From a virus, in IMG/VR virus record IMGVR_UViG_3300043465_000726, positions 1 to 23,777 of that record: DNA of 23,777 nucleotides. One strand, 5' to 3'. Made by a program: the position numbers and the translations under genes. How positions within the stretch are numbered: the stretch's first letter is position 1; each line of letters opens with the position of its first letter. Below, piece by piece: positions 2,685-13,146 of the stretch. The notes beneath the pieces were generated by a model. The model searched no databases, was not told the DNA's origin, and saw nothing but the letters and a program-made list of their open reading frames with translations.

Positions 2685-4204
2685 CAACTGCCCATCCAAC
2701 TATTGACCACTTGTCCAGAATACGCACGCCGCGCACCCTTGACTGTAGCCTGCCTAGACGCTACAGGATACGCGAATGTTACCGCAATAGCATCCGCAGC
2801 GTCTGGAGAGGCCAATCCACGCGCCCGCATGTCCTTTTTGGCCTCCAATTGGATGGCCCCGGACGAATTCAGCTTCTGGTGCGGCCCCGTAAAGTCCGAT
2901 TTTAGCCGTCTGTCGGTCGGAATTGACGCATTTTTGAGCCAATCCTTCATCAAACCCCACAATTCGGCCCGTTTGTTCATGTAGACGACCGGATTCTTGG
3001 CTTTCCAGCCGAAATTGACCCCTCGGACCTTGTACCGCTGCTCGTTTAGCCGGTCGAGGATGCCGTAGCCCAGCCCGCCCTCGTCTATTACGGTCAGGGT
3101 GGGCTTGTACTCCTCAATCGCCTCGATGATCCGGCCCACCGTGGTCATCGTGTCGTCGCCCTGGTACCGTTTGATCGCGATCAGGTCCCGCCCCCGCCGC
3201 ACCGCCAGCACGGTCGAGTCCAGCCCTGAGCGCGCCGGGTCGATCCCCAGCACGATGGCCGCGTTCTCATCCTTATATGAGGGCCGCTTCATCGCGTCAT
3301 CGACCAGTTGCGGGTTGATGAACTGATCGTCCCCTGCCGCCGGGAACTCCCCGTACACCTCCATGCGCGCCTGCGGGCTGTCCTCGCCGTGTTCGGCGAT
3401 GATCTGCTCATAGATGTTCTTGTCCGTGTCCTCGACGGTGCGGGCGTCGATGTTTCGGGTGTTCCAGAAGTCCCGTTTGGCGTTGAAGCACTCGTAGAAG
3501 TACCCCTGATTGCGTCGCGGGTTGCTGAACGCGAACCAGTACCGGTGCAGCACGTTCTCCGTGAAGAAACCCGCCCCGACCGACCAGATGGCGTCCGGGA
3601 TACCGGAGGCCTCATCGAACACCAGCATCATGCCGTCGTGGTTGTGCGCGCCCGCATACGAGTCCGGGTTCTCCTCGCTCCAGAGCTTCCCCTCCGCAGC
3701 CCAGTAGCGCGTTCCCTTCTTCAGGTCGCGCTCCACGATGTCCGTCAGCCACTGCGCCGGCGTCAGCTTGGTCGCCGAGATCTCCCACCAGTGCGCGTTC
3801 AGGATCATCGTGGACCACTTGGCCAGTTCGCCCCAGGTCACCGAGCGTAGCTGCGCCTCGCTGTTGGCGCTGACGATCACCGTCCCGCCGATGCGCGTCG
3901 TGAGGAACCACAGGATCAGCCACGCCACCAGCGCCGACTTCCCGATGCCGCGTCCCGAGGCGACCGCCTCGCGCAGCGCCTGCATGTCCACCTGGCCCTT
4001 GTTCTTGGCGATGTGCTGAGCCACGCTCCGCAGGACGTCCCGTTGCCACTTGCGCGGCCCTTTGAACTTCGCCAGCGGGGTGTTGGGCTGACCCCACGGG
4101 AACGAGAACAGCACAAACGCTTCCGGGTCGTCCGCGATCTTCGGCGACCACAGGCGCGCCATCAGCGCCTGCTCGTCCTCAGCGGAGTAGATTGGTTTCT
4201 GCAT
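2684..4204 (-). CDS. terL: Terminase large subunit (packaging ATPase/nuclease)
   Basis: The 506-residue protein has the two domains of a phage DNA-packaging motor. The ATPase carries a Walker A motif GRGIGKS at residues 84-90 and a Walker B motif MLVFDEAS at 193-200 with the catalytic Glu198. The RNase H-like nuclease has acidic residues at D322 (GIDPARSG), D374 (TVIDEGG) and D468/D471 (SPDAADAIA). The protein binds the portal, is recruited by the small subunit, translocates DNA into the prohead and cuts the concatemer. Its start overlaps the upstream stop as TAATG, and its stop overlaps the portal start. The length is normal for the family and no key motif is missing. Confidence 0.95.
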   Translation of the reverse strand: MQKPIYSAEDEQALMARLWSPKIADDPEAFVLFSFPWGQPNTPLAKFKGPRKWQRDVLRSVAQHIAKNKGQVDMQALREAVASGRGIGKSALVAWLILWFLTTRIGGTVIVSANSEAQLRSVTWGELAKWSTMILNAHWWEISATKLTPAQWLTDIVERDLKKGTRYWAAEGKLWSEENPDSYAGAHNHDGMMLVFDEASGIPDAIWSVGAGFFTENVLHRYWFAFSNPRRNQGYFYECFNAKRDFWNTRNIDARTVEDTDKNIYEQIIAEHGEDSPQARMEVYGEFPAAGDDQFINPQLVDDAMKRPSYKDENAAIVLGIDPARSGLDSTVLAVRRGRDLIAIKRYQGDDTMTTVGRIIEAIEEYKPTLTVIDEGGLGYGILDRLNEQRYKVRGVNFGWKAKNPVVYMNKRAELWGLMKDWLKNASIPTDRRLKSDFTGPHQKLNSSGAIQLEAKKDMRARGLASPDAADAIAVTFAYPVASRQATVKGARRAYSGQVVNSWMGS

Positions 4205-4989
4205 TAGTCAGTATCGGGCGTGTTAATCGAACGCGGTGCGTAGACTTCTTTAATGTTGTGTGGGGCTAACCTAATTTCGCGTCCGTTTGGCAGCCTAACA
4301 ATAGGCGCTCGCGCGGTGCCGGCGGTCTTGTTCTGAAGCACATGCGTGCCTACGACTACGCCTTCGCGTATGTCCTCATTAAACCCGTGTTGAAACTTGA
4401 TTTTGGTGCCTACAGGAATAACCGACATGTTTTCAAATACCGGGCGAGCGGTATTTAACATAGTTTTTGCTCTTTCAGCGTTATAAGTAATGTCTTCTAA
4501 CGGCTTTAACCTAGCAAAAAGTTCATCGTAAGTAATTTTGTTTTCGCGTGCCATTTTCCACAAGTCAAGTTTCATGGCGTTTGCGCGTTCTGGCGATATA
4601 GGCGGAAATTTTTTATCTACGTTGAGCATGTCGGGCGCTCGCCCACCAGGCCGCAGCGGCAGCATCTCGCCCGCAACTTCGCCAAACCCCAGCGGGCCGC
4701 TCTTGGCGCGGCGCGCAGTGTCGCGCAGGACGTTGCCGATCAGCGCAGGGTTACGCATCAACTCGCGCATTCCGCGCAGCGTGTTAGTGGCATACGCACG
4801 CGGGTCTGACACCAGCGCCTGCACATCTTGCAGTTGCGTAACGGCGCCGCGCCCAAGCCCCGCCGATACGTTTTCTAGCTGCTGTCGTATGCCAAGCGGA
4901 GGTGCGTATTCTGGCGTGCGCGCAGTAGGGTCAGGCACGCTGTTATAGAGCGCGTTGTAATTGTTAGGCGCAATTCGGTTAGTCGGCAT
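4204..4989 (-). CDS. Unknown protein encoded between terS and terL
   Basis: I do not recognise this 261-residue protein. The N-terminal half is helical and has a proline-rich start followed by GLGRGAVTQLQDVQALVSDP and GEVAGEMLPLRPGGRAPD, a style seen in phage virion-associated and polyvalent proteins. The C-terminal part (about residues 195-255, including VPVGTKIKF-like, GVVVGTHVL and VRLPNGREIRLAPHNIKEVY stretches) looks like a small beta domain. It overlaps the terS end by 11 nt and the terL start by 1 nt (TAATG). By eye the DNA for the C-terminal half (about 4204-4620) is clearly more AT-rich than the terminase genes on either side, which suggests a separately acquired segment. A packaging accessory or virion-carried protein is possible from position only. 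Confidence 0.75.
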   Translation of the reverse strand: MPTNRIAPNNYNALYNSVPDPTARTPEYAPPLGIRQQLENVSAGLGRGAVTQLQDVQALVSDPRAYATNTLRGMRELMRNPALIGNVLRDTARRAKSGPLGFGEVAGEMLPLRPGGRAPDMLNVDKKFPPISPERANAMKLDLWKMARENKITYDELFARLKPLEDITYNAERAKTMLNTARPVFENMSVIPVGTKIKFQHGFNEDIREGVVVGTHVLQNKTAGTARAPIVRLPNGREIRLAPHNIKEVYAPRSINTPDTD

Positions 4990-5374
4990 AGGTATGCTCT
5001 ATTAGTCGCCCTTGCGCTTGCTCCAGCGCCGTGATGACGCTGATCTGCTGCGATACGTCGATCTGCACTTGTTGCTTGGCGACCCAGCCGTGCTGGTGCT
5101 TCAGGATCTCCAGCGCCATCTTGGCGTCGCCGTTGTTGGCGGCTTCGTGCAGCACGTTCGACAACCGGCGCTCGCCGTCAGCGCGCCCCTTCAGTTCGGC
5201 CATCTCCGCCAGCGGGTCCAGTTCCTTCAGCCTGCGGTACTCGACGGGCAGGAACCCGGAGGCCAGCGCCAGCGAGTCCCCTTTCAGCCCCAAGGTGGCC
5301 GAGGCATAGATGCGCTCAAGGTTCGCTTCGGTCGCGCGCACTTCGCGCACTGTCAAAGGAAGTGATTTGAACAT
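4979..5374 (-). CDS. terS: Terminase small subunit (putative)
   Basis: The 131-residue protein is almost wholly helical. It has a basic N-terminal part likely to include a DNA-binding fold (ASATLGLKGDSLALASGFLP), then a helical segment (NNGDAKMALEILKHQHGW) and a Gln-rich C-terminal oligomerisation-type region (VQIDVSQQISVITALEQAQG). This matches the size and style of small terminases, which form rings that recognise the packaging site and hand DNA to TerL. It is the first leftward gene after the large intergenic region and sits one gene upstream of terL. There is no good Shine-Dalgarno; the region just upstream of the ATG is an inverted repeat with a T-run. Assignment rests on recognition of the family style plus position. 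Confidence 0.78.
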   Translation of the reverse strand: MFKSLPLTVREVRATEANLERIYASATLGLKGDSLALASGFLPVEYRRLKELDPLAEMAELKGRADGERRLSNVLHEAANNGDAKMALEILKHQHGWVAKQQVQIDVSQQISVITALEQAQGRLIEHTYAD

Positions 5375-5375
5375 G

Positions 5376-5392
5376 TTTGGTAGATTACCAAA
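5376..5392. promoter_or_regulatory. Perfect 7-bp inverted repeat touching the terS start codon
   Basis: TTTGGTA and TACCAAA flank a 3-nt centre, and the repeat begins 1 nt upstream of the terS ATG. On the minus strand a run of T residues precedes it. It occupies the place where a Shine-Dalgarno should be. An operator, or a translation-controlling hairpin for terS, is inference. Confidence 0.5.
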
Positions 5393-5457
5393 AAAAATTG
5401 TGCTTGGGGGCTGTACCGCTGATGGCCCGATGCCAAGGCCCTCCCCCCCCCACCCTC

Positions 5458-5495
5458 GTTACGTTATTACATACTATGGTACGCTATAACGTAAC
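5458..5495. promoter_or_regulatory. Perfect 10-bp inverted repeat with 18-nt centre
   Basis: The arms GTTACGTTAT (5458-5467) and ATAACGTAAC (5486-5495) match exactly. The wide AT-rich centre and lack of a T-run argue against a terminator and fit a dimeric repressor or activator site for the divergent region. Confidence 0.5.
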
Positions 5496-5506
5496 AGCCT
5501 GGTGCC

Positions 5507-5534
5507 CGGCATGGGGGCGCGCGGCATGGGGGCG
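5507..5534. repeat. Two 13-bp direct repeats
   Basis: CGGCATGGGGGCG occurs at 5507-5519 and 5522-5534, with a degenerate related copy near 5557-5566. They lie just ahead of the 40-bp duplication. Confidence 0.7.
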
Positions 5535-5570
5535 TAGGCGCGCAGGCTAGTGGCGCGCGGCATGGCCACG

Positions 5571-5650
5571 ATTCCCATGATTCCCATGGCCATTTGGTCG
5601 CTGAACCGGAATTCCCAAGATTCCCATGGCCATTTGGTCGCTGAACCGGG
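5571..5650. repeat. Tandem 40-bp duplication
   Basis: Units 5571-5610 and 5611-5650 are head to tail and differ at only two positions (5578/5618 and 5610/5650). Each starts with two ATTCCCA boxes 9 bp apart and then carries the palindrome CCATGG and the shared tail GGTCGCTGAACCGG. Short spurious ORFs over this region on both strands reflect the repeat. Confidence 0.92.
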
Positions 5651-5923
5651 TTTGCGGTCTGTCGGGCTGCTGGCTGGCTGGCTGGCTGGCCAATTATTCC
5701 CATTATTCCCATATTCCCATGGGAAAAAAAGTCATGCGGGGAGACACGCACCAAGATGGTGCAGACGCCGCGCTCCAAGGGAAGCTGTACGGATATACAG
5801 TATATATATAAATTTTCCTTTTTCTACTAGCTAACAAAACCATAGGAATATAGGAATTTAGGGTCTAAGCCATTGATTTTGCGGCCGCAAATCATGGCCA
5901 CGCATGCGGCAAACCATGGGAAT
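5571..5923. repeat. Iteron-like ATTCCCAT boxes
   Basis: The 8-mer ATTCCCAT is found at 5571, 5580, 5620, 5696, 5705 and 5713, with a variant ATTCCCAA at 5611. Neighbouring copies are 8 or 9 bp apart. The reverse complement occurs at 5916-5923, and a one-mismatch inverted form ATAGGAAT occurs in tandem at 5842-5857. The AT-rich stretch 5797-5820 lies between the direct and inverted groups. This is the typical layout of initiator-binding iterons, but no dedicated initiator gene is obvious next to it. Confidence 0.6.
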
Positions 5924-5952
5924 CCGCACCGTGGTCATCATGTCGAAAGGTG

Positions 5953-5980
5953 TTGCACAGTCTGACAGACGTGCTAATCT
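5953..5980 (+). promoter_or_regulatory. Possible promoter of the early operon
   Basis: TTGCAC at 5953-5958 and TAATCT at 5975-5980 are separated by 16 bp and lie 30 bp before the first early gene. Both hexamers match sigma70 consensus only in part. Position is the main support. Confidence 0.3.
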
Positions 5981-6010
5981 TACCCCGTCGGACACATACA
6001 CGGAGCGAAC

Positions 6011-6205
6011 ATGAACAAGTCAGAAACGCGGGAATTCACGAAGCTGGTTACGGTCGCCAAGTCACACCCTGACTATGCCGCGCGCGGGCTGGCAGCGTTG
6101 CATCGCGCGGCCATGCGAAACAGCACGAAGGCAACCATTGACGCGGCCATCGCGCAGTACCAGTTGGCCGCGCACCTGACGCGCGTCAACGGCAGCTGGA
6201 TCTAA
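6011..6205 (+). CDS. Small early protein, unknown
   Basis: This 64-residue basic, helical protein (MNKSETREFTKLVTVAKSHP) has no motif I recognise. It is the first gene of the rightward operon. GGAG, seven bases before the ATG, is a clear ribosome binding site. The leader CACGGAGCGAAC and the first codons ATGAACAAG are repeated at the next gene. It is a likely early host-interaction protein by position only. Confidence 0.7.
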   Translation: MNKSETREFTKLVTVAKSHPDYAARGLAALHRAAMRNSTKATIDAAIAQYQLAAHLTRVNGSWI

Positions 6206-6212
6206 CGCTAGC

Positions 6213-6234
6213 GGCGCCCCGCCTACGGGGCGCC
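6213..6234 (+). other. Intergenic GC-rich hairpin 1 of early operon
   Basis: GGCGCCCCG and CGGGGCGCC form a perfect 9-bp stem around the loop CCTA, 7 nt after the stop codon of the first gene. No T-run follows, so a simple intrinsic terminator is unlikely. An mRNA-stabilising or attenuating structure is possible. Confidence 0.65.
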
Positions 6235-6265
6235 CATCCCACACACAGACACGGAGCGAACGAAC

Positions 6266-6439
6266 ATGAACAAGCGAAGCCCCGAATACAAAGCCTTGCG
6301 GCAGACCTTCAAGGTCTACTTTTCTGACCTTCAGGACGACGCTCGCAAGGAAGGCTACTCGGTATCCCGAACTGATGAATGGGAGCGTTTCGTAGCGGCG
6401 CACCTTGAGCAACTGTCCGACGATATCCGCAATTCGTAA
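6266..6439 (+). CDS. Small early protein, unknown
   Basis: This 57-residue ORF begins MNKRSPEYKALRQTFKVYFS and ends LEQLSDDIRNS. It is helical and rich in charged residues. The ribosome binding site lies in CACGGAGCGAAC, a copy of the leader of the preceding gene with an extra GAAC before the ATG. There is no recognisable domain. It fits snugly between the first hairpin and the next gene. Confidence 0.68.
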   Translation: MNKRSPEYKALRQTFKVYFSDLQDDARKEGYSVSRTDEWERFVAAHLEQLSDDIRNS

Positions 6440-8070: not shown

Positions 8071-8306
8071 TGGCGCCGTTACGAGCGTTAGCTCGCTACA
8101 AGACGCATGGTGGATATGTGTGGGCTGCCGTCATGAGTGATGGCGAGCTGGTCTGTACGCCATGCGTGCGCTCAAACTACCGGCAGATTTTCGCGTCAAC
8201 TAAACAGGCCGCGCGTGATGGCTGGCAATGTGTCGGAATCACGAATTCGGGAGAATGGGAATCGCCCGAAACGTGCGCCCACTGCAACCAGGAGTTAGGG
8301 GCATGA
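8067..8306 (+). CDS. Small zinc-ribbon-like early protein
   Basis: The 79-residue product carries two Cys-x2-Cys pairs, CTPC in the middle and CAHC near the C-terminus, a spacing that suits a zinc ribbon. Between them runs SNYRQIFASTKQAARDGWQC. The chosen ATG overlaps the previous stop (ATGA); an in-frame ATG at 8055 would add four residues and one at 8133 (MSDGELVCTPC) would shorten it. No canonical ribosome binding site precedes 8067, so translation probably depends on coupling. A role in binding nucleic acid or a host protein is inference. Confidence 0.7.
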   Translation: MMAPLRALARYKTHGGYVWAAVMSDGELVCTPCVRSNYRQIFASTKQAARDGWQCVGITNSGEWESPETCAHCNQELGA

Positions 8307-9007: not shown

Positions 9008-11287
9008 CTACTTTTGGCCGCTTTTGACGATTGACAGCGTGACGGGACTCTCCGCCAGGCGACGCAACTCGCTGGCGGAGAGTCCCCAGAATTCCGGCGC
9101 GCAGAAAACGTGCTTTGCGTTCGCGCCAGCCGCTTTGACTCTCCCACAGTCCCGCCACCCAGCCTCAGCCAGCGCGTGTAGCACATGCGCTTGATGGAAC
9201 CGCACGCTTGATTGCGCGCTGAGGGTTTCGGCAATCGCTTGCCAAGGCGAGCCAATCACGCCAGCCCGGAACACGCCAGCCCGCGCGCGGATCATGTCCA
9301 CGAGCGTAGACTCCTGCGCAGACATTGAATGTTCGACCAGGTTTAATTTCCAGTCGGTCACGGGCGGCGCGGCAGCCGGATTGAATGCGGACACGTCGCG
9401 CGCATATAGCCACGACGCGCATTCTTCAAAGCCCCCGGACCGATACCAGGTCCACAGTGCGTCCCCGTCCATGCGTGGCGCGTGGGACCACAGACAGAAC
9501 CAGCGCCTATCTTGCGTGTCCAGGCTGATCGGCATGGGATCATTGGTGTACGCCAGAACCAGCATGCGGTTCAGCATGTCATACGGGTGCAGATTCTTGC
9601 GATTGACGGACAACAATTCCGGAGGCGCCGCGATGATCGGCTTGAGCCGGTTGGCGAGCGCACGGCGCTCGCGAGCCTCCGGTTCCTTTAATTCGTTCAG
9701 GATCAGAATTTCGCTTTCCAGCGCGTAGCCCCATGAGCTTGATATGGTGTCGTTGTCCAGCAAGCCCTTGTTCGCGTTACCTGGACCGCACACTGCCCAT
9801 ATAAACGGAGCGTACAGCGTATCCTTCCCGCATCCCTGCAAACCGCCATGCAAAATTGCATGGTTAATTTTGACCTCAGGATGCTGGACTTTATAGGCCA
9901 TCACATCGAGCACATGGTTTCGCTCATCCACGTTTGGAATCAGAGTTTCGACATGTGCGAGCCACGGCAGCGGGGCGCCGCCAGGCGCGACCTCGGGACG
10001 GGCATTGCGCCAGCGGTTGCCGTATACCAGCCCGTTGCGGGCGACCAGTTCAGTCTCGCCAGCGGCGTAGGTGACCCCGGCAATGCTGCGGGCGCCGCGA
10101 GCCTGGCGGTTCTCGTCGAACGAGACCGACGCCTCGACGCGCGGGCGCTTGCCATGGATCGACCGGCAATCAATGTGCCGGAACAGCGCGTTGAACGTCC
10201 GTCGCGACACTTCCCGGCGCTCCAGAATATCGAAATACGAATCATCGACCTCGACATAAGCGAACCGGGCCGCCCAGTCGCTTTGCTCCAGCCGGCCAAG
10301 CTCGCGCGCGTTGACTTCCTCGATGACCTTCTGCGCGGCATCGGGAAACGCCTCAGTCGGCGTGATCTGTTTCAGCGTCATCGCCATGCGCTCGGCGAGC
10401 AGCGTGTCCCGCAGGCCGGTTGCGTGACGCGGCCCGCCCGCATCGGCGACCCAGGTGAGGAACGCGGTGCTGCGCCAGTCCTCGCAATGCCCGTGCCAGC
10501 AACAGAACGAGCGCGTGGCCGGCATGTACCTGCCCTCGACCGACCCGTCCGAATGCTCGGCATGGTTAGGGCAGACGACGCCGCACCAGCCCTCTGCGTT
10601 CGTTTGGGACAGCAGATAGCCGTGCTCGGACAGCCAGATCATCACATCGTCGGCGTTATCGTCCGCAAGCCGCAGGGGCCGCAGGGGCGCGCTCGGCTCG
10701 GCAGGCAAGACGCCCAGCGCGGTGCAGATTTCGGGTAACGTGAACTCGCGAGTCGGGTCGAACTCGACCAGCACCGACGCCCAGTTGGCCTTGCCGGGTT
10801 TCAAATTGATTGACCCCGGCAGGCGGAAATTGCGGACGGCATTGAGCGCGCCGGGATCAGTGAATCCGGCATCGGCGATCGCGCGCATGGCGGCGGTGAA
10901 TTCGGCTTTTGTCGGCTGCTCTCGGAAGGCATAGCCCCACTGTTCGTTTCCGGGACTCGTTTCCATGCGCCAGGTCGGCGCAAGCGGCGGCGCTTTGGAT
11001 TTCGTGCCGACGTCATCCAGCACCAACACGAGCGCGTACTCGCAATTGGCGGCGCTGGCCGACACCCGGCCCTCGTCAAACCGTTCAATAATGAAGCTGC
11101 CGGTGTTGCCGTACCACGCTTGGCCCGGTGCCGTGCCGCGCGAGGCGAGGAACGCAGGCCAGGTGCATTTCAGCGTCCCGTCGGCGTGCTGCTGGATCTC
11201 GCCATCGGCAAGCTTGGGCTTTTGCCGGACAATCAGCGCGGTCTCGCCTTGCGGCGCCAGTTTGGCAAACCAATCAAGAAAATTCAT
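9008..11287 (-). CDS. Primase-helicase: RepB-type primase, zinc finger and DUF5906-type SF3 helicase
   Basis: The start is ATG 11287, which overlaps the polymerase stop (ATGA); a longer open frame to 11380 lies inside the polymerase gene. The 759-residue protein has an N-terminal RepB-like primase-polymerase region (about 50-180, with LVLDD and RNFRLPGSINLK), a cysteine/histidine zinc-finger region (C235, C239, H242, C262, H265, C268) and a C-terminal SF3-type ATPase. The ATPase has Walker A GGLQGCGKDT at 481-490, an acidic Walker B region ILILNE (about 527-532) and sensor residues in LAYTNDP (578-584). It would prime and unwind DNA at the phage fork beside the adjacent polymerase. All expected motifs are present. 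The C-terminal codons contain a 15-bp inverted repeat. Confidence 0.88.
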   Translation of the reverse strand: MNFLDWFAKLAPQGETALIVRQKPKLADGEIQQHADGTLKCTWPAFLASRGTAPGQAWYGNTGSFIIERFDEGRVSASAANCEYALVLVLDDVGTKSKAPPLAPTWRMETSPGNEQWGYAFREQPTKAEFTAAMRAIADAGFTDPGALNAVRNFRLPGSINLKPGKANWASVLVEFDPTREFTLPEICTALGVLPAEPSAPLRPLRLADDNADDVMIWLSEHGYLLSQTNAEGWCGVVCPNHAEHSDGSVEGRYMPATRSFCCWHGHCEDWRSTAFLTWVADAGGPRHATGLRDTLLAERMAMTLKQITPTEAFPDAAQKVIEEVNARELGRLEQSDWAARFAYVEVDDSYFDILERREVSRRTFNALFRHIDCRSIHGKRPRVEASVSFDENRQARGARSIAGVTYAAGETELVARNGLVYGNRWRNARPEVAPGGAPLPWLAHVETLIPNVDERNHVLDVMAYKVQHPEVKINHAILHGGLQGCGKDTLYAPFIWAVCGPGNANKGLLDNDTISSSWGYALESEILILNELKEPEARERRALANRLKPIIAAPPELLSVNRKNLHPYDMLNRMLVLAYTNDPMPISLDTQDRRWFCLWSHAPRMDGDALWTWYRSGGFEECASWLYARDVSAFNPAAAPPVTDWKLNLVEHSMSAQESTLVDMIRARAGVFRAGVIGSPWQAIAETLSAQSSVRFHQAHVLHALAEAGWRDCGRVKAAGANAKHVFCAPEFWGLSASELRRLAESPVTLSIVKSGQK
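9044..9086. terminator. Perfect 15-bp inverted repeat at the convergent operon ends
   Basis: GGGACTCTCCGCCAG (9044-9058) and CTGGCGGAGAGTCCC (9072-9086) match exactly around a 13-nt loop. The repeat lies in the last codons of the primase-helicase gene and about 40 nt past the end of the early operon. Neither strand has a T-run after it, so intrinsic termination is unproven. A shared transcript-end structure is likely by place and strength. Confidence 0.6.
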
Positions 11288-13146
11288 TTTCCGTACCTCG
11301 TCATTTTTTTGACGGTAGCCTTGAGGGGAAGTCCGGTCGCCCATTCGGGCGCTCGGCACATAACGGCGGCGAGGTCGCAATCGCCTTCAACCACAATCTC
11401 ATCGTGGACATGCAACACGACGCCATCCAGCCCGCGCAGCGCGTGGCGCAGCAGGTCGGCGGCGGTCGCCTGCACGACGTTTTCGCATAGCAGACCTTTC
11501 CACAAGCGGGCGCGCGGCCACTCGGCGGCATCGGCGCGAGGCTTCCATGATGCGCGAGCGTAGGTGATGCCGTCCTCGTCAAAACGGGCGTAGGGGTAGC
11601 AAAGAATACGCCCGCTCGGCAGCATGTACCAGAGGTGTGTGCCGTCGCTTAGGTAGGTTATCCGGCCCGCCGTCACCTCGGTGCCGGGGCGGCGCAGGGC
11701 GACCGTGGCGGCTTCCTCAAGCTGGCTCCAGAACCGCACCGCCCACGGGTTGGCGCGACGCCAGGCATCGACAATCGTACGAGCTTGCGACTCGGGAAGC
11801 GAAATGCCGTAGGCGCGGCCCATCGCCGCGAACGCGCCGACCGACCCGCCGAACCCACAGGCGAGGATGGCGACCTTACCGATCTGCCGCTGCTCATCGT
11901 CAATGTCCTCGGTGCGGAAGATCGCGCGAGCCTCGCGGACATAGATGTCATCACCTCGGCGGAACGTATCCAGCACCGACTCAGCCGCCGGGTGATTCGA
12001 CAGCCACGGGTTCACCCGCGCTTCAATCGCGCTCCAGTCGGCCACGGTGAAGTCGCCGATCATCGCGGGGCGCAGCATCCCGCGCAGCACATCGGTCGTG
12101 CGCTTGCCGTGCTTGGGCACGATCTCATGCCCGCGCACCATCGACTGGCGCACGGCCTCGGGGTCTTTGGCGCACTTGCGGGTGAAGTTGTGGACCTGCA
12201 AGCCGTAGCTGGATGCCCGTCCAGTCGCGGAGCCGCCCGCGAACACGAACGCGCCGCGCACGCGGTCATCCGGCCCCGCCAGGTCAACCATGCGTGAGAA
12301 CTTGGCGACGCTCGACGCCCACAGATCGTCTGCCGACTGCACGACCTCGCGCACATCAAGGTCAAGGTCATCGCAGGCCAGCAGGTTAGCGCGCACGGTC
12401 TTGTCCATACTCGGCTTGTCGTCCTTGACGGCGAGCTCCAGTTGTTCCGGGGTCAGGCGGGCCAGCACCCATTCGCGCATCCGGGGCGAGCGCACGGTCG
12501 GCACGGCGCCCCCGGTGATCGCCAGCACATGCGCCTCGATCTCGGCGCTCTCGGTCGCGGCGTAGCGCATCGCGGCACGGGCGAGGTCCACATCGACCTT
12601 GACGCCACGGTCATTGATGCGCTCGTTGATGTGGTAATCACTCAGTTCCTCGGGCGACAGTTCGCGCAGCGACTGACTGATGGCGCGCATGGCGCGCACA
12701 TCCTGCTCGCAGTAGGCGATCAGTTCGCTGGGGTCGTCCTCGCTGAAGGGCGGCACGCAGAACTTGCGGACCAGCGCCTTGCCTTTGTGATCCTTCCGCA
12801 TCCCGGCGCCCGCAAAACGACCCACATCCTCCAGACTGCCTGGCGCGCAATTGGCGCGGGCTTGCGTCGCGGTGCAGTAGAACTGCTCCAGCGCGAAGTC
12901 CATCCCCAGCACATGCTTGAAGATCAACCGCTCAAAAGCGGCATTGTGCGCGCGGATCTGCCCAACGAAGTTCGCGACGCGCTCGGGGAACGGATGAAGC
13001 GGCGTCCAGGTACGCACGTCCTCGTCATCGAAGGCGTAGGACATACACAGCACCTCGGTGGTGGCGTGCATCGCGTAGTTGTAGACGCCGCGCGACGGGA
13101 GGTCACAGTGACTGCGGGTCTCGAAATCAATCCACAGTTTTGACAC
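11284..13146 (-). CDS. Family A DNA polymerase with 3'-5' exonuclease
   Basis: The 620-residue protein starts with a DnaQ-like exonuclease: WIDFET with D7 and E9, HNAAFERL around N68, and YCEQDVRAM with D149. The polymerase part has motif A DWSAIEAR (370-377), motif B from R420 through K424 to GFGG, and motif C HDE at 581-583, which are the metal and dNTP-binding residues of family A. It is compact compared with bacterial Pol I and has no 5'-3' nuclease, as is usual in phages. GTG at 13146 has GGAGG eight nt upstream. It overlaps the preceding small gene by 20 nt and the primase-helicase by 4 nt, so polymerase and primase-helicase are probably translated together. Confidence 0.94.
   Translation of the reverse strand: MSKLWIDFETRSHCDLPSRGVYNYAMHATTEVLCMSYAFDDEDVRTWTPLHPFPERVANFVGQIRAHNAAFERLIFKHVLGMDFALEQFYCTATQARANCAPGSLEDVGRFAGAGMRKDHKGKALVRKFCVPPFSEDDPSELIAYCEQDVRAMRAISQSLRELSPEELSDYHINERINDRGVKVDVDLARAAMRYAATESAEIEAHVLAITGGAVPTVRSPRMREWVLARLTPEQLELAVKDDKPSMDKTVRANLLACDDLDLDVREVVQSADDLWASSVAKFSRMVDLAGPDDRVRGAFVFAGGSATGRASSYGLQVHNFTRKCAKDPEAVRQSMVRGHEIVPKHGKRTTDVLRGMLRPAMIGDFTVADWSAIEARVNPWLSNHPAAESVLDTFRRGDDIYVREARAIFRTEDIDDEQRQIGKVAILACGFGGSVGAFAAMGRAYGISLPESQARTIVDAWRRANPWAVRFWSQLEEAATVALRRPGTEVTAGRITYLSDGTHLWYMLPSGRILCYPYARFDEDGITYARASWKPRADAAEWPRARLWKGLLCENVVQATAADLLRHALRGLDGVVLHVHDEIVVEGDCDLAAVMCRAPEWATGLPLKATVKKMTRYGK

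Follow-up and report, generated by a model that had tools for sequence, protein, structure and literature searches.

In the P4 alpha protein a primase, a helicase and a winged-helix domain that binds origin repeats are combined in a single polypeptide, which then unwinds the DNA and primes synthesis (as summarized in PMC4234260). SaPI Rep and SCCmec Cch2 are D5-type self-loading helicases whose C-terminal domain binds the iterons of the cognate origin (PMC7581432), and the replication protein of Bordetella phage BIP-1 comprises an AEP primase, an SF3 helicase and a C-terminal winged helix (PMC4234260). In the case of NrS-1 the recognized site, TTTGGTTA, belongs to the primase part of the protein (PMC8718748). 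The V. cholerae satellites (PLE) provide an example where the DNA-binding domain of the initiator, RepA, and the origin iterons covary and are swapped together, with the swaps driven by a phage nuclease that copies the specificity of the initiator (PMC8263062).

The subject here is a linear virus record from IMG/VR, 23,777 bp in length and referred to throughout as the window, that encodes a polymerase A, a DUF5906 primase-helicase, a terminase and a portal. Positions 5571-5923 are very probably an iteron-type replication origin of a P22-like podophage, read by its own primase-helicase; this protein is taken as the reader because the iteron word covaries with its wing and not with the small terminase, TerS. 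Judged from sequence, it is at these repeats that replication of the virus, an uncultivated one infecting bacteria, most likely starts.

Relatives were collected by terminase and primase and have in common the gene order pol, primase, leftward genes, gap, terS, terL, portal, with TerS identified by position and synteny, without a family match. The only close named record is MW202483, an uncultivated circular podophage of 38.8 kb (Manatee Spring) with P22-like coat and portal; bacterial genome collections gave metagenome-assembled contigs only, and near-identity DNA searches among named phages and plasmids returned nothing useful. Between terS and terL the window has an ORF of 261 amino acids (4204-4989) for which PHROG and Pfam gave no match; one relative (L002) retains the gene, and it went undetected at this location in the others.

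An iteron array in the gap upstream of terS

The repeats are found in a divergent intergenic gap of 636 bp (5375-6010), bounded on one side by the terS-like gene (- strand) and on the other by a + strand ORF, with small genes continuing rightward. Exact ATTCCCAT occurs 8 times in the window where 0.37 copies are expected by chance, a count reached in 0 of 100 shuffles, and 7 of the 8 are inside the gap, the remaining one being at 8255. Six exact copies on the + strand form two clusters with an internal spacing of 8-9 bp (Table 1), the first of which coincides with a tandem 40-bp head-to-tail repeat (5571-5610 and 5611-5650, 38 of 40 positions identical) that also includes the variant box ATTCCCAA. 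Past an AT-rich block, 78% AT relative to a gap median of 56%, there are inverted ATTCCTAT variants at 5842 and 5850 and a single exact inverted copy. The initial annotation had listed the 40-bp duplication, six boxes in two clusters at this spacing and three inverted copies or variants across the AT-rich block, all of which are borne out. Direct short boxes with regular spacing, an AT-rich block alongside, and boxes that are both kept in relatives and confined to the site are as in iteron origins.

The closest relative, L082, with a 99%-identical primase, retains the 40-bp spacing and both inverted sets. Its box columns are identical to those of the window at 78 of 88 positions, as compared with 184 of 291 in the rest of the zone (Fisher p = 3e-6), and because the boxes are more conserved than their surroundings this alignment indicates that they are under constraint.

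Table 1. Coordinates of the proposed origin and of the protein regions discussed in the text (window numbering)
Feature	Position	Strand	Remarks
Left iteron cluster	5571..5650	+	40-bp tandem repeat; ATTCCCAT at 5571, 5580, 5620, ATTCCCAA at 5611; kept in L082
Second iteron cluster	5696..5720	+	ATTCCCAT at 5696, 5705, 5713; partly kept in L082
AT-rich block, proposed duplex-unwinding element	5784..5860	.	~78% AT over best 50 bp; putative role
Inverted iteron variants, ATTCCTAT x2, 8 bp apart	5842..5857	-	Far side of AT-rich block; identical in L082
Inverted exact iteron	5916..5923	-	Upstream of + strand early genes; conserved in L082
Primase-helicase, proposed origin-binding initiator	9008..11380	-	AEP primase domain, DUF5906 D5/SF3-type helicase, C-terminal winged helix
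C-terminal winged-helix domain, residues 688-760	9101..9319	-	AlphaFold2 models; PDB comparison
Wing, residues 746-758	9107..9145	-	Tip residues 749, 751, 753, 754 track iteron word across relatives

Several further elements are located in and near the gap. On the terS side a poly-A tract is followed by a GC-rich element (GGCCCT...CCCTC, 5385-5460) that is conserved in many relatives despite their different iterons; it may serve in packaging or form a terminator-like leader for terS. Next to it, at 5458-5495, the sequence GTTACGTTATTACATAC-TATG-GTACGCTATAACGTAAC forms a hyphenated palindrome. It is strongly conserved in L082 and possibly an operator or regulator site. A likely early promoter, recognized by eye at 5953-5980 (TTGCAC, 16 nt, extended -10 TGCTAATCT at 5972-5980), faces the + strand genes a short distance past the 5916 box and is kept in L082. 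GC-rich tandem arrays with units of 4-8 bp (for example GCCCGACC x10) separate terS from the iterons in the gaps of L012, L013, L016, L036, L037 and L062, and their counterpart in the window is a (GGCT)n run at 5665-5690. A search of Rfam gave no match within 5200-6300 of the window.

Iteron words and the wing of the primase-helicase

In the relatives, gaps upstream of terS were scored with a spacing-aware word score and shuffled controls (null top scores mostly below 10, one of 13.6), used in place of a first EM motif search that was dropped on account of contamination by low thresholds and GC-rich microsatellites, and 104 of 143 distinct gaps pass the threshold. Conservation of box spacing in related genomes, which the initial annotation had singled out for comparison, is seen at the equivalent site in most gap-bearing relatives (8-11 bp), with words that differ by lineage: TGTGGACAA, TGTAGTCAT, AATTGTCA, ATTGGCAAT, TGTCAGCAA and TTGGGTCAT. 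The word of a given locus has a density of 10.3 copies per kb within the gap, as against 0.24 per kb in the remaining sequence, a difference of ~40 times, and in the complete, circular MW202483 the equivalent gap holds 8 of 9 ATGTAAAC copies. The common layout consists of sets of 2-3 direct copies spaced by 8-11 bp, an AT block, and then mostly inverted copies; to the left of the block copies run mostly one way (325:64), while to the right inverted copies predominate (43 loci vs 10), and many relatives have inverted copies ~11 bp apart near the position of the 5916 box and early promoter. Alignment of the words over 32 distinct wings gives a common core of roughly T-N-G-N-C-A with variable positions between, from which the window word, ATTCCCA, deviates at the G. 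Five relatives (L045, L050, L054, L068, L070) encode a TerS with a different N-terminal half and have CCGTAACA/TGTTACGG repeats upstream of terS instead.

The helicase part of the window protein is assigned by Pfam (DUF5906, E 2e-9) and by its relation to the C-terminal region of the NrS-1 polymerase, the nearest structure (6k9c; Foldseek E 2e-17, phmmer E 5e-4), and the primase-helicase model is also matched by the SaPI5 primase-helicase 7ola (E 1e-7). Further matches of the model are the AEP PrimPol 6zp9 and PrimPol-helicases; its primase is AEP-like and not of the TOPRIM type of P4 alpha. As in P4 alpha, a C-terminal winged helix is predicted after the helicase, with matches to generic winged-helix domains (Z up to 6.5), among which the P4 origin-binding domain was absent. 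The wing is the predicted loop between strands 743-748 and 756-760 of the AlphaFold2 model.

Among loci with proteins at least 97% identical, iteron sharing is 0.93 for the primase, 0.44 for TerS and 0.49 for the polymerase. Once overall identity is held fixed the primase signal is confined to the last ~70 residues, and the N-terminal half has no correlation with the iteron word. Comparison of helicases that are at least 85% identical places columns 749, 751, 753 and 754 at the top, with residues that differ in 92-98% of the pairs whose words differ and in 1-27% of those whose words agree. Correlations (rho) with iteron sharing are 0.76 for the wing, 0.31 for the core, 0.14-0.15 for TerS and 0.10 for the genes between primase and gap; since these intervening genes are without signal, proximity does not explain the effect, and together with the TerS control they lead us to reject linkage as the cause of covariation.

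Plain correlations overstate the evidence because pairs of loci share ancestry, and we have therefore analyzed independent pairs, connected by tree paths without overlap, over all 127 usable loci with the hold-out loci included. For the closest such pairs (43: 9 switches, 34 same) wing identity separates switched from unswitched words with an AUC of 1.00, and when switches are chosen first (20 vs 23) the AUC is 0.96, while other 13-residue windows have mean values of 0.56-0.57 and a maximum of 0.87. For path-independent pairs drawn from the training set alone the wing is again the top window, by a small margin (rho 0.64, with no window beyond the domain above 0.61); adding the hold-out loci makes the margin clear. 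Helicase cores at least 97% identical underlie 9 of the 20 word switches; examples are L228 (KSREFDT, TGTGGACAA) and L238 (ASADFTS, ATTGTCA), or L096 (MSRDYTA, TAGTCAT) and L093 (ASAEYMN, ATATTGCCA). The one switch without a wing change is in the L148/L130 primase group, where identical wings go with words that apparently differ; these gaps are GC-rich and their words are called with doubt, so that the exception is perhaps a fault of motif calling. The path-independent pairs supersede a parsimony test that counted the branches with a change in both word and wing and in which, with noisy consensus labels, the wing (0.39) was not distinctive relative to random variable triplets (0.32).

Loci fetched later, with those removed whose gaps resembled training gaps, served as a hold-out set (n=35) in which success was defined as at least 3 occurrences in the gap of the word belonging to the nearest training wing. 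This word is found in 27 of the 35 gaps, as opposed to 3 of 35 when the word is taken from the closest helicase core whose wing differs. Mean copy numbers are 5.31 for the wing word, 0.66 for the control word and 0.61 for random words (Wilcoxon p = 1e-5, a value that is only a guide since some of the 35 loci are interrelated). In these comparisons of sequences the wing tip of the primase-helicase tracks the word, and the initial annotation's suggestion that the primase-helicase could act at this site is one to which the covariation now points. The wing type of the window is found only in the window itself and in L082, so that in the case of this genome the link is drawn from homology within the family and from conservation of the boxes.

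Alternative functions for the repeats

The boxes might be operators of divergent early and late promoters, through which the primase-helicase or another phage protein regulates transcription rather than starting replication. The gap is a divergent promoter region, with a plausible extended -10 sequence 50-60 bp past the 5916 box and, in many relatives, the closely spaced inverted copies described above. We nevertheless regard this as unlikely, as melting and loading account better than repression alone for boxes that are placed on either side of an AT-rich block and covary with a helicase.

The initial annotation had left open whether the region is an origin or a packaging site. The first part is supported, with iterons on both sides of readily melted DNA at a site that is conserved; the second is not supported. 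A pac or cos recognition site bound by the small terminase encoded alongside would be in keeping with the position of the boxes, adjacent to terS in all syntenic relatives, and with the conserved GC-rich element between iterons and terS. However, the site sequence does not follow the small terminase: L044, L065 and L076 have TerS proteins that are 100% identical and three different iteron words, and pairs with TerS at least 97% identical and primases less than 85% identical have no iterons in common (mean sharing 0.006 over 20 pairs). Packaging as the main reading was rejected on these grounds and is very unlikely; the sequence comparisons indicate that the boxes are probably not the packaging site, and the terS-proximal GC-rich element could be involved in packaging. 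The initial annotation had also raised an inflection of GC skew at 5571-5870, which is absent at the gap both in the window and in MW202483, the one complete relative examined, although skew is weak evidence in so small a genome.

Least probable, and very unlikely, is that the repeats are primase start templates read single-stranded by the N-terminal primase part, as is TTTGGTTA by the NrS-1 polymerase (PMC8718748) that the helicase part most resembles, for the signal is in the C-terminal wing, the N-terminal half is uncorrelated with the word and copies are present in both orientations.

Proposed mechanism and comparison with known systems

For an origin read by the primase-helicase we envision that several copies of the protein would bind ATTCCCAT boxes on both sides of the AT-rich block via the C-terminal winged helix. 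Iteron bases that most relatives have in common (roughly T-N-G-N-C-A) would be read by the recognition helix, and those specific to a lineage by the wing tip. Once assembled, the helicases would melt the AT block and load on it, after which the primase-helicase would prime synthesis and the phage DNA polymerase A would extend. Copies near the early promoter may also regulate it.

How initiators remain faithful to their origins and how new specificities arise without loss of replication in between are usually studied on few pairs. This phage group supplies ~30 distinct wings and more than 10 iteron words, several of them switched on helicase cores at least 97% identical with the layout still recognizable, and because across many related viruses a few residues at the primase-helicase tip change together with the word, the matching of protein and origin is predictable from sequence. 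The word-wing link also offers a route to origins in uncultivated phages from sequence alone, and with it short synthetic DNAs and domain swaps become direct tests of specificity change, replicon incompatibility and DNA recognition by a wing. We consider the chances about even that the wing tip is a portable address code, in which exchange of some six residues re-targets the primase-helicase and word and wing have switched repeatedly on nearly unchanged cores, probably under pressure to keep the origin from being shared with rival phages or satellites, or with nucleases directed at origins. By analogy, a pressure like that in the V. cholerae satellites could be behind the diversity of words. 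The PLE RepA_N is an unrelated N-terminal domain with two specificity classes, whereas the family studied here has many more classes and a handful of wing residues accounts for the change in specificity.

Differences from the other systems are also apparent. In BIP-1 an iteron origin was not recognized and a stem-loop was proposed, whereas the present family has iterons. The NrS-1 primase-polymerase has the closest solved helicase region (6k9c), yet there it is the primase part that is tied to the site; in the present family the word is tracked by the C-terminal wing, and polymerase A is a separate protein. SaPI and SCCmec origins lie directly downstream of the helicase gene and their Rep/Cch2 systems are on islands; the proposed origin of the window is ~3 kb from the helicase gene, adjoining terS, in what is a virulent-looking podophage group and not an island. 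P4 alpha, like the window protein, joins primase, helicase and winged helix in one chain, although its primase is TOPRIM-type (PMC4234260) where that of the window is AEP-like (6zp9), and both word sequences and layout differ. By analogy the origin most likely works like those of P4 alpha or SaPI Rep, and what is new here, as compared with the open-licence literature, is a large natural recognition code.
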